From contig NC_018178.1 of assembly GCF_000279145.1 (NCBI RefSeq), positions 62,001 through 126,000 on the forward strand: 64,000 nt of DNA, written 5' to 3'. The DNA comes from Melioribacter roseus P3M-2 (GTDB lineage: Bacteria > Bacteroidota > Ignavibacteria > Ignavibacteriales > Melioribacteraceae). A program made the position numbers and the translations under genes. The notes under the pieces were generated by a model. That model worked only from the letters and a program-made list of their open reading frames with translations. It searched no databases and was not told the origin of the DNA. This document shows, piece after piece, positions 15,193 to 16,983 of this stretch (its first letter is position 1; the number at the start of each line of letters is the position of its first letter).

Positions 15193-15205
15193 AATTTTCC
15201 TGAAC

Positions 15206-15227
15206 AAAAAAAACGGAGCTAACTCCG
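15206..15227 (-). terminator. Intrinsic terminator of tRNA-Val
   Basis: Minus-strand CGGAG-TTAG-CTCCG stem-loop followed by eight T residues, starting nine bases after the tRNA-Val 3' end and ending 14 bases before the thrS ATG. Confidence 0.8.
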
Positions 15228-15235
15228 ATAGTTAG

Positions 15236-15309
15236 TGGGTTCTACAGGACTCGAACCTGTGACCTTCTGCACGTCAAGCAGACGCTCTAGCCAACTGAGC
15301 TAAGAACCC
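15236..15309 (-). tRNA. tRNA-Val (anticodon GAC)
   Basis: Complete 74-nt cloverleaf on the minus strand. Acceptor GGGTTCT pairs with AGAACCC, discriminator A; D-arm GCTC/GAGC; anticodon stem TCTGC/GCAGA around TTGACGT, anticodon GAC; T-arm CACAG-GTTCGAG-TCCTG region. No encoded CCA. This intact copy is the last (3'-most) member of a tandem array whose five upstream members are broken. Confidence 0.93.
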
Positions 15310-15989
15310 ATTTAATTTATTTAACTCATAAAACTATTTTCTTTTTTAATAATTAGTTAATTTATCTTGTCAATGTATAATATTATTTCGAACCTGTGAC
15401 CTACCCGCCAAGGCGGGTCGCTCTAGCCAACTGAGCTAAGAACCCATTTAATTTATTTAACTCATAAAACTATTTTCTTTTTTAATAATTAGTTAATTTA
15501 TCTTGTCAATGTATAATATTATTTCGAACCTGTGACCTACCCGCCAAGGCGGGTCGCTCTAGCCAACTGAGCTAAGAACCCATTTAATTTATTTAACTCA
15601 TAAAACTATTTTCTTTTTTAATAATCAGTTAATTTATCTTGTCAATGTATAATATTATTTCGAACCTGTGACCTACCCGCGAAGGCGGGTCGCTCTAGCC
15701 AACTGAGCTAAGAACCCATTTAATTTATTTAACTCATAAAACTATTTTCTTTTTTAATAATCAGTTAATTTATCTTGTCAATGTATAATATTGTTTCGAA
15801 CCTGTGACCTACCCGCCAAGGCGGGTCGCTCTAGCCAACTGAGCTAAGAACCCATTTAATTTATTTAACTCATAAAACTATTTTCTTTTTTAATAATCAG
15901 TTAATTTATCTTGTTAATATATAATATCGTTTCGAACCTGCGACCTACCCGCCAAGGCGGGTCGCTCTAGCCAACTGAGCTAAGAATTC
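15310..15989 (-). repeat. Five 136-bp tandem units carrying broken tRNA-Val copies with a swapped anticodon arm
   Basis: Exactly 136-bp period: the tRNA 5' end recurs at 15309, 15445, 15581, 15717, 15853 and 15989. Broken copies occupy about 15388-15445, 15524-15581, 15660-15717, 15796-15853 and 15932-15989. Each keeps the acceptor 5' strand, D-arm and T-arm 5' part through TTCGAA, but the 18-nt anticodon arm is replaced by a 17-nt GC hairpin (first one at 15403-15418, ACCCGCC-AA-GGCGGGT on the plus strand), and the acceptor 3' strand is absent. The AT-rich leader between copies includes a TTGACA and a TAGTTTTA box that could be promoter elements. Copies differ at single bases (for example ccgcgaagg in the third; the outermost copy reads aagaattc), so they have diverged naturally. 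This covers a 740-base stretch without protein genes. Confidence 0.92.
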
Positions 15990-16049
15990 AATTAACTTAT
16001 TTTCAATAAGTTATAATTAACTACAAAAACTTAGTTTTGAAAAAAGACG

Positions 16050-16135
16050 TACCGAGGGCCGGACTCGAACCGGCACGGGTGAAAACACCCACAGGATTTT
16101 AAGTCCTGTGCGTCTACCAATTCCGCCACCCCGGC
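16050..16135 (-). tRNA. tRNA-Leu (anticodon TAA)
   Basis: Complete 86-nt class II tRNA on the minus strand. Acceptor GCCGGGG pairs with CCTCGGT (two G-U pairs), discriminator A; D-arm with GGCGGAATTGGTAGACGC; anticodon stem CAGGA/TCCTG around CTTAAAA, anticodon TAA; long variable arm GGGTG/CACCC; T-arm GCCGG-TTCGAGT-CCGGC. No encoded CCA. Unlike its two neighbours it has no broken copies beside it. Confidence 0.95.
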
Positions 16136-16173
16136 AGACATTATGTCAATGAATAATAATCCAAAATGGAATA

Positions 16174-16205
16174 CAAATATAATCTTTTTTTTATCTTTTT
16201 TGCAA
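16174..16205 (-). promoter_or_regulatory. Bacteroidota-type promoter for tRNA-Leu
   Basis: Minus strand: TTG (complement of 16203-16205), 21-base spacer, then TATATTTG (complement of 16174-16181), matching the -33 TTG / -7 TAnnTTTG consensus of Bacteroidota. It lies about 38 bases upstream of the tRNA-Leu 5' end. Confidence 0.6.
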
Positions 16206-16262
16206 TATATGGACAAATAATAGAATTTTAAGGCGCAAATTTACTTATATTACCTAATCGTA

Positions 16263-16294
16263 TTTGCAAAGAAACCGCTAAAACATTATTTTTG
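16263..16294 (+). promoter_or_regulatory. Bacteroidota-type promoter for tRNA-Met/Ile2
   Basis: TTTG at 16263-16266, a 20-base spacer, and TATTTTTG at 16287-16294, matching the Bacteroidota -33/-7 consensus. The -7 box ends 16 bases before the tRNA at 16311, consistent with a short leader. Confidence 0.65.
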
Positions 16295-16310
16295 TACCGC
16301 TTAAAATAAT

Positions 16311-16384
16311 GGGCCCATAGCTCAGTTGGTTAGAGCAGCTGACTCATAATCAGCGGGTCGGAGGTTCAAGTCCTTCTGGGCCCA
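16311..16384 (+). tRNA. tRNA with CAT anticodon (elongator Met, or Ile2)
   Basis: Complete 74-nt cloverleaf: acceptor GGGCCCA pairs with TGGGCCC, discriminator A; D-arm GCTC/GAGC; anticodon stem GCTGA/TCAGC around CTCATAA, anticodon CAT; T-arm GGAGG-TTCAAGT-CCTTC with one G-U pair. No encoded CCA. Elongator Met is the first choice; a lysidine-modified Ile2 cannot be excluded from the sequence alone. A strong terminator follows 17 bases later, and then an array of 3'-half copies. Confidence 0.92.
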
Positions 16385-16932
16385 CAGAAAAAAATAAAAG
16401 CCCGGTACTTAATTTTGCCGGGTTTTTTGTTTTTAAAAAATCAGCGGATCGGAGGCCCGTCTAAGTCGGGTAAATTCAAGTCCTTCTGGGCCCACAGAAA
16501 AAAATAAAAGCCCGGTACTTAATTTTGCCGGGTTTTTTGTTTTTAAAAAATCAGCGGATCGGAGGCCCGTCTAAGTCGGGTAAATTCAAGTCCTTCTGGG
16601 CCCACAGAAAAAAGTTAAACCCGGTACTTAAACTATTGCCGGGTTTTTTGTTTTTATAAAATCAGCGGGTCGGAGGCCCGTCTAAGTCGGGTAAATTCAA
16701 GTCCTTCTGGGCCCACAGAAAAAAATTAACCCGGTACTTAAACTATTGCCGGGTTTTTTGTTTTTAAAAAATCAGCGGGTCGGAGGCCCGTCTAAGTCGG
16801 GTAAATTCAAGTCCTTCTGGGCCCACAGAAAAAAATTAACCCGGTACTTAAACTATTGCCGGGTTTTTTGTTTTCAAAAAATCAGCGGATCGGAGGCCCG
16901 TCTAAGTCGGGTAAATTCAAGTCCTTCCGGGC
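16385..16932 (+). repeat. Five 110-bp tandem units: terminator plus tRNA 3' half with an inserted hairpin
   Basis: Period 110 bp (one unit 111): the 3' ends corresponding to the tRNA CCCAC recur at 16495, 16605, 16716 and 16826, and a truncated one near 16932. Each unit holds a terminator followed by the tRNA 3' half (AATCAGCGG..TCGGAGG and TTCAAGTCCTTCTGGGCCCAC); fragments at 16439-16494, 16549-16604, 16660-16715, 16770-16825 and 16880-16932. Between GGAGG and TTCAAG, where the T-loop begins, sits a 19-nt insert CCCG-TCTAAGT-CGGG-TAAA (16456-16474 in the first). The tRNA 5' half is missing in every copy. Single-base differences show the copies have diverged. This accounts for most of the protein-gene-free stretch 16385-17048. 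Confidence 0.92.
16401..16428 (+). terminator. tRNA terminator, repeated in each array unit
   Basis: CCCGG, a 12-base loop, CCGGG, then six T residues: the intrinsic terminator of the intact CAT tRNA. The same element recurs at about 16511-16538, 16620-16649, 16730-16759 and 16840-16869; the last three have a slightly different loop, which groups them as younger duplicates of one another. Confidence 0.85.
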
Positions 16933-16983
16933 AATAGATTATTTATAATTAATGGCTCTCAACTTTTATCATTTCTAAATAAA

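Follow-up and report, generated by a model that had tools for sequence, protein, structure and literature searches.

The stretch of Melioribacter roseus P3M-2 DNA analyzed here (bases 62001-126000 of the single-contig genome of 3,300,414 bp; the whole 64,000 bp are called the window, and positions are counted from its first base) carries a tandem array of five partial copies of tRNA-Val(GAC), in each of which a hairpin takes the place of the anticodon arm. This Val array is one case of an element family which is spread over the genome and over the phylum, and whose fuller members encode a GIY-YIG nuclease. In the fuller form one unit of a few hundred bp consists of a hairpin-marked partial tRNA copy, here called tRNA', and an open reading frame (ORF) of ~80-90 amino acids with little beyond the GIY-YIG domain. 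The Val array itself is probably the tandem, ORF-less and non-autonomous form of such a small GIY-YIG element nesting in tRNA genes.

The array lies at 15310-15989 on the minus strand, upstream of tRNA-Val(GAC) and between this gene and tRNA-Leu(TAA), both of which are also on the minus strand (Table 1). The initial annotation of this DNA, which was made from the sequence alone, described five units with a period of exactly 136 bp beside tRNA-Val(GAC), and this is borne out both by the hairpin positions and by the repeat-finding program TRF (5.3 copies, 97% matches). Read in the tRNA sense a unit consists of tRNA-Val 1-27, a hairpin (ACCCGCC-TT-GGCGGGT on the tRNA strand), tRNA-Val 45-59, which stops in the T-loop, and 78 bp of AT-rich leader. 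The exchange of the anticodon arm for a hairpin, as first described, stands, with other sizes: the arm is 17 nt and not 18, and the hairpin 16 nt and not 17. The acceptor 3' strand was rightly said to be gone, and the T-stem 3' strand is gone too. The changes in the most distal unit (8/136 against unit 1) include a change of the 5'-end GGG to GAA, and two of the substitutions found among the units are nested outward from the tRNA. The hairpin pattern occurs only within the array when the whole genome is searched, as an exact match in 4 of the 5 units. It could be argued that the array is an assembly artefact, short tandem repeats being error-prone in assemblies. This is hardly credible: the units differ by nested substitutions, the same architecture is present in independent genomes, and the M. 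roseus genome paper describes checks by PCR and sequencing at repeated elements (PMC3534657).

Table 1. Coordinates of the two tandem arrays and of the intact tRNA genes next to them.
Feature	Position	Strand	Details
Intact tRNA-Val(GAC), gene the array builds on	15235..15309	-	ARAGORN; Rfam tRNA 71.6 bits
Val unit 1, tRNA-proximal	15310..15445	-	tRNA part 15388-15445, hairpin 15403-15418, leader 15310-15387
Val unit 2	15446..15581	-	Same sequence as unit 1 (0 differences); hairpin 15539-15554
Val unit 3	15582..15717	-	2 differences from unit 1; hairpin 15675-15690, with one substitution, which breaks a pair
Val unit 4	15718..15853	-	2 differences from unit 1; hairpin 15811-15826
Val unit 5, distal	15854..15989	-	8 differences from unit 1; hairpin 15947-15962
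tRNA-Leu(TAA), upstream neighbor and far border of the Val array	16049..16135	-	ARAGORN
Intact tRNA-Met(CAT), carrier of the sister array	16311..16385	+	ARAGORN, Rfam
Sister array (Met)	16440..16934	+	Unit starts 16440, 16550, 16661, 16771, 16881; insert of first unit 16456-16474

The same window holds a sister array which the initial annotation did not mention. It lies 3' of tRNA-Met(CAT) and has five units of 110-111 bp, the last of them truncated. In a Met unit a 19-nt insert places a hairpin in the T-arm, between tRNA-Met 38-54 and 55-75, and a terminator-like stem follows. The terminator region of the nearest unit is that of the intact gene, and the farther units differ. Full units of the two arrays carry, beside the tRNA part, a copy of the tRNA's own flank, which is the 5' leader in the Val array and the 3' terminator region in the Met array. 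A search of the whole genome with the Pfam profile PF01541 gave no match in either array. Another tandem array with a period of ~188 bp is seen downstream of a tRNA-Met in genome G014 (L080, 1-897); no tRNA part was recognized in it by eye.

The leaders of the Val units, which are AT-rich, had been called promoter-like, a description that finds no support in the sigma-70 consensus. A scan of 15200-16960 with the sigma-70 consensus, which does not model Bacteroidota promoters, gave 5 matches against a shuffled mean of 4.1 (sd 1.9), and 2 of the 5 start in hairpins of the Val array and end in leaders. Prediction of the structure of one unit had been proposed as a check: the tRNA part of a Val unit folds no better than shuffles (z -0.87), and the same is found for the Met copy (z -0.65). 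The suggestion that the Val units are an expressed set of non-decoding tRNA-like RNAs finds no support in this folding, nor in the broken hairpin of the third unit.

The DNA around the tRNA matches of the M. roseus genome (43 rows; 42 distinct ARAGORN sequences) was examined for partial tRNA copies, and 12 of the 42 distinct tRNA sequences were found to have adjoining partial copies with a foreign insert, usually a hairpin, in one arm. They are Val-GAC, two Met-CAT genes, Thr-TGT, Gly-CCC, Asn-GTT, Cys-GCA, Asp-GTC, Pro-CGG, Ser-GCT, Ser-TGA and Ser-CGA; further weak matches around tRNAs were taken as likeness to other tRNAs and are not counted among the 12. Most of the copies terminate in or close to another arm. 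Six of the 12 tRNAs (Asn, Cys, Asp, Pro, Ser-GCT and Ser-CGA) have an intact or decayed ORF between the whole tRNA gene and a hairpin copy, and its product is a GIY-YIG protein of about 80-90 amino acids; the match at Ser-CGA is interrupted by an internal stop. All five own-genome proteins that were tested match PF01541 with E values of 1.6e-15 to 3.5e-20 (57.6-72.5 bits against a cut-off of 22.6), and with NCBIfam the two proteins tried gave no match above its cut-off. Among solved chains the nearest to the GIY-YIG protein are UPF0213, then SLX1, then intron-associated endonuclease 1. Such a kinship suits a DNA nuclease that prefers structures, without proving one. The Cys-type ORF appears to be under purifying selection when compared with a Melioribacter metagenome-assembled genome (pN 0.12, pS 0.79).

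The coupling of this protein to tRNA genes is also seen when the loci are not selected for it: 12 of the 18 PF01541 matches in the genome are at tRNA loci, one of them (Leu-CAA) being a fragment at which no tRNA copy was seen, and roughly estimated ~1% of the genome lies within 300 bp of a tRNA gene. The other six matches are found among other interspersed repeats (3), within ORFs of 562 and 622 amino acids (2) and in a separate gene (1). The three small genes amid interspersed repeats lie near 1219477, 597314 and 3125097 of the genome (L045, L048 and L049), away from tRNA genes. The repeats around L049 have the form GTCATTCTGAG..hairpin..GACGAAGAATCT; the hairpin TCCGACACAGACGGA of the Ser-TGA copies is present in one of these repeats. 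In all this hairpin was found in three Ser-TGA copies and at two other places. A stray Asp-type hairpin copy is seen near 1598250 (L059), ~26 kb from tRNA-Asp and upstream of another GIY-YIG gene.

Relatives were searched with a profile built from five tRNA-linked GIY-YIG proteins of M. roseus. With the own genome included, matches were present in 51 of the 57 genomes of the family and in 160 of 247 sampled genomes of Bacteroidota (87 of 121 genera). A tRNA gene was found at most 300 bp from the ORF at 73 of the 89 loci read in the family, one of which (L091) is from M. roseus, and at 35 of the 43 loci read across the phylum, rates which describe this protein type and not all GIY-YIG genes because the loci are best matches to a tRNA-linked profile. 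ORF and tRNA are on the same strand every time. The ORF is downstream of the tRNA at 61 family loci and 28 phylum loci and upstream at 12 and 7. The remaining loci show no tRNA (14 and 6, several of them cut by contig ends) or a tRNA farther away (2 and 2). When named genomes were searched with the Cys-type protein, 79 loci from many phyla were obtained, and 26 of these have a tRNA gene within 300 bp, again on the same strand in 26 of 26. The other 53 loci have no tRNA within this distance, and at three of them that were inspected the ORF lies between inverted repeats. At L245, L292 and L281 GIY-YIG ORFs of the same type are flanked by imperfect terminal inverted repeats (for example CCCCGTTAGAGATA...TATCTCTAACGGGG), and no tRNA was found in the locus. 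The three sets of loci (family, phylum and named genomes) may overlap, and L140, which overlaps L093, and L186, which is at the same place as L224, were left out of counts and trees. The elements that were read are chromosomal or on genome contigs; searches of phage and plasmid collections with one query protein gave 19 and 4 records, all below 60% identity.

The GIY-YIG clades follow tRNA identity. In a tree built from 102 proteins, 14 tRNA labels occur in more than one row; together they need 17 changes, where 13 is the minimum and the shuffled mean is 57.4, and none of 200 shuffles came as low. When the phylum set was added, the 108 tRNA-labelled rows needed 37 changes against a shuffled mean of 83.4 and a lowest shuffled value of 78. 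The alignment has 81 columns only, and many forks are unresolved; domain matches shorter than 74 residues were excluded from the trees, and for the phylum-set tree tandem near-copies were cut to one row per locus. The host family labels cluster too (26 changes against 33.4 shuffled, lowest 30), and horizontal movement is therefore not separated from descent.

The inserts are mostly found in the loops of the tRNA. When 97 distinct inserts were placed, 36 were in the T-loop, 14 in the D-loop and 8 in the anticodon loop, 14 replaced the anticodon arm, 9 replaced the part from the anticodon loop to the T-loop and 4 that from the anticodon loop to the variable region, 5 were in the variable arm and 7 elsewhere. 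Taken together 85 of the 97 lie within or span tRNA loops (D, anticodon, T) or take the place of the anticodon arm. The script that joins the pieces of a copy can link them wrongly (the Tyr case at L145 is a cross-match to another tRNA), and a few rows among the 97 are false. L005, whose places were read in L008, is excluded from the count of positions, and inserts below 13 nt are excluded from the analyses of both position and stem. A terminal stem of at least 5 pairs is present in 71 of 113 inserts and in about 10.5% of shuffled inserts, and several of the others are double hairpins when judged by eye. The arms pair fully in the inserts of Asp (7 loci), Cys (5) and Pro (4), and arms swapped between loci give 0.88, 0.80 and 0.76, a comparison which was restricted to inserts with stems of 4 or more and hence favors pairing. 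Columns changed on both sides of the stem number 2 for Asp, 3 for Cys and 4 for Pro. Hairpin copies can be annotated as tRNAs: the "tRNA-Ser(GGA)" called by ARAGORN at L104 (1398-1474) looks like a Pro-type tRNA gene in which a hairpin takes the place of the anticodon arm.

One explanation of these observations places the system at the RNA level. The hairpin-bearing tRNA copies would be transcribed into decoys or antitoxins that mimic tRNA and hold a tRNA-specific GIY-YIG nuclease in check, much as the tandem RNA antitoxins of type III toxin-antitoxin systems do. The tRNA-specific clades and the constant strand would agree with this, as would tandem structured repeats and hairpins with compensatory changes. 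We consider the explanation unlikely, since the copies in the window lack one strand of the acceptor stem and fold no better than shuffled sequences, a pair is broken in one of the Val hairpins, and PF01541 has no match beside the Val and Met arrays. Moreover the nearest solved relatives of the domain are the uncharacterized UPF0213 proteins and then SLX1, which is a DNA nuclease.

It may also be asked whether a dedicated element is needed at all. Slippage or unequal crossing-over might have produced a plain tandem duplication into which a dispersed palindrome was inserted by chance. Val units 1 and 2 are identical, other GC-rich palindromes exist in the genome, and the dispersed-palindrome part of the proposal is not fully dead because some hairpin types, TCCGACACAGACGGA being the example, occur outside tRNA copies. 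The Val hairpin pattern is not dispersed in this way, the same architecture recurs at many tRNA types and in many genera with the inserts mostly in loops, and a nuclease ORF belonging to tRNA-specific clades is on the same strand in every case counted. We give plain duplication only a small chance.

Occupied and empty sites can be compared directly at tRNA-Lys(TTT) of genus g24, where the element is present in genome G024 and the site is empty in G067 and G079. The order of the occupied allele is whole tRNA, a new terminator-like stem, the ORF and the hairpin-bearing copy; part of a second unit consists of N. Beyond the last copy comes the native 3' flank, the same as in the empty allele, so that a hairpin copy stands between the element and the native flank. 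At the Val locus two genomes of one genus form a similar pair. In G031 there are two units of the 5' type, whose hairpin differs but is again at the anticodon arm, and in G069 the Val-Leu spacer is empty (46 bp), with a hairpin copy upstream of tRNA-Leu instead of Val copies. A scripted count covered the 28 relatives which show both tRNAs: 24 have no tRNA copy in the spacer (6-139 bp), 3 have Val copies (L066, L082, L085) and 1 has a Leu copy (L073). A 29th locus (L062), at which neither tRNA is visible, is outside this count. The comparison of alleles shows that a unit is inserted at a tRNA gene and that the tRNA is kept whole. The repeated insertion or duplication at a tRNA gene that was proposed at first is supported by the 24 copy-free relatives, by the congeneric pair and by the divergence which rises away from the tRNA, and the search of tRNA-Val loci in relatives that was proposed with it did find Val copies, in the 3 cases given.

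In one same-genus genome (L309, G001:C26:1-10500) thrS and tRNA-Val are separated by ~8.9 kb with hydrogenase-like ORFs, recognized by eye; the end of the contig is 28 bp upstream of tRNA-Val. This 8.9-kb insert could be taken in favor of the view that the copies are scars of integrase-type elements, that is fragments of tRNA attachment sites which stayed behind as prophages or integrative elements repeatedly integrated and were lost. No integrase-like ORF was recognized in the insert (by eye, no family search). The units that were read hold a GIY-YIG ORF or none and are too small for an integrase, judged by size and ORFs with no integrase profile run, and the copies, which have a hairpin within an arm, are found on either side of the tRNA, 5' and 3'. 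Such scars are a very improbable origin of the arrays.

The make-up of other arrays connects units with and without the nuclease gene. A Ser-TGA array in another genome (L117) combines ORF-less units of 203 bp with an ORF-bearing unit, and the hairpin-bearing tRNA parts are the same in both kinds. One Asn gene (L096) has two different ORFs in a row beside it, with differing hairpin patterns and from different clades, and one Ser gene (L095) has different elements on its two sides, with ORFs in different clades. Within L096 (963-1800, reverse strand numbering) an anticodon-loop hairpin and the T-loop hairpin type of the outer element occur together in the inner Asn copy, a combination which suggests that element families have recombined. 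At 28 loci one side of the tRNA holds at least two ORF copies. In 9 of these loci a full copy is accompanied by a broken one, which is distal in 8 of the 9. Arrays thus look younger nearest the tRNA. Because ORF-less and ORF-bearing units mix and because broken copies are mostly distal, we read the Val and Met arrays as non-autonomous arrays which have grown at the tRNA end.

The mechanism we propose for such a tRNA-nesting GIY-YIG element is the following. The nuclease would open the tRNA gene at a loop in a homing-like manner; in the case of the Val array it would act in trans or have been lost since. Recombination through the identical tRNA sequence outside the hairpin would then insert the unit and rebuild the tRNA. 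In the copy the hairpin would take the place of the cut site, so that the copy is not recut, and perhaps the hairpin is also a structure which the protein recognizes. With each further round at the intact gene the array would grow outward. A wider hypothesis, which we hold more tentatively and with less than even confidence, is that these elements represent an undescribed class of mobile elements. Tiny GIY-YIG nucleases would recognize hairpin loops of tRNA genes and place units of 0.1-0.5 kb beside the tRNA gene, at either of its ends, with the tRNA kept whole and the displaced copy marked by a hairpin as the recognized end structure. The same machinery would drive the hairpin and inverted-repeat elements around the GIY-YIG relatives that are not at tRNA genes, and ORF-less arrays would be non-autonomous passengers.

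A number of points weigh against the interpretation of the array as a tRNA-nesting GIY-YIG element with the mechanism proposed. The intact tRNA of an occupied allele keeps the presumed cut site, which makes the immunity argument incomplete. Besides GIY-YIG and the overlapping T5orf172, Pfam recognized no domain in the five own-genome proteins that would account for the choice of one tRNA gene. There is no ORF in the Val array, and its link to the nuclease therefore rests on shared architecture. An ORF-bearing Val-GAC element is found at none of the family loci read, and only at L243 and L305, which belong to other groups. The 53 loci of the Cys-type protein with no tRNA nearby and the clustering of the proteins by host family belong here as well, as does L131, the exception among the nine loci, where the broken ORF copy is proximal. 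Part of the polarity of the arrays could come from unequal crossing-over.

The closest published system found is SegB, a free-standing GIY-YIG homing endonuclease of T-even phages which is located at phage tRNA genes (PMC13096335). According to the part of that report that was available, SegB resembles the elements described here in that a GIY-YIG nuclease gene lies beside tRNA genes and is tied to tandem amplification of a tRNA-containing segment; it differs in being phage-borne and in the wide range of tRNA isotypes reported, and hairpin-bearing partial tRNA copies, tRNA-specific clades and ORF-less arrays are not mentioned in that part (PMC13096335). The same-strand adjacency to tRNA genes and the tRNA-specific clades mark the present genes as free-standing nuclease genes with a fixed target in the genome, introns and inteins having been checked by an Rfam scan of the window only. 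Homing endonucleases of the SegB kind usually have a sequence-specific DNA-binding domain beside the catalytic domain. In our proteins no such domain was recognized beside GIY-YIG by Pfam.

Integrative elements which attach at tRNA genes (PMC9897764, as far as its available part goes) share with the Lys-TTT case the whole tRNA and the partial copy between element and native flank. They differ from the present elements, which are a few hundred bp or less, have a hairpin inside an arm of the copy, occur on both the 5' and the 3' side and, by the same judgment from size and ORFs, have no integrase in the units read. In the REP/RAYT system a small nuclease gene, which encodes a tyrosine (HUH) transposase, is coupled to short dispersed hairpins that multiply without the gene too. 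The likeness lies in the small nuclease gene and the gene-free spread of hairpins; the nuclease here is of the GIY-YIG type, however, the hairpins are within tRNA copies, and no dispersal through the genome is seen for the Val hairpin. The tyrT/rtT repeats of E. coli lie in tandem beside a tRNA gene and each contain part of the tRNA, and in this they resemble the Val array; to our knowledge they have neither a hairpin-swapped arm nor a nuclease. In the titles and abstract openings of the open-access papers listed no tRNA-nesting GIY-YIG element with hairpin copies was recognized, and a description elsewhere is quite possible. There is a fair chance that the element, related to homing-type nuclease genes and to tRNA-targeting elements, forms a class of its own.

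If the interpretation is true, an element of a few hundred bases which depends on a nuclease of ~80 residues would be, from general knowledge, among the smallest known. It would explain why small GIY-YIG genes are found beside tRNA genes, and also the tRNA fragments that can confuse annotation. It makes testable how a bare catalytic domain picks one tRNA gene, and what the hairpin swap does.
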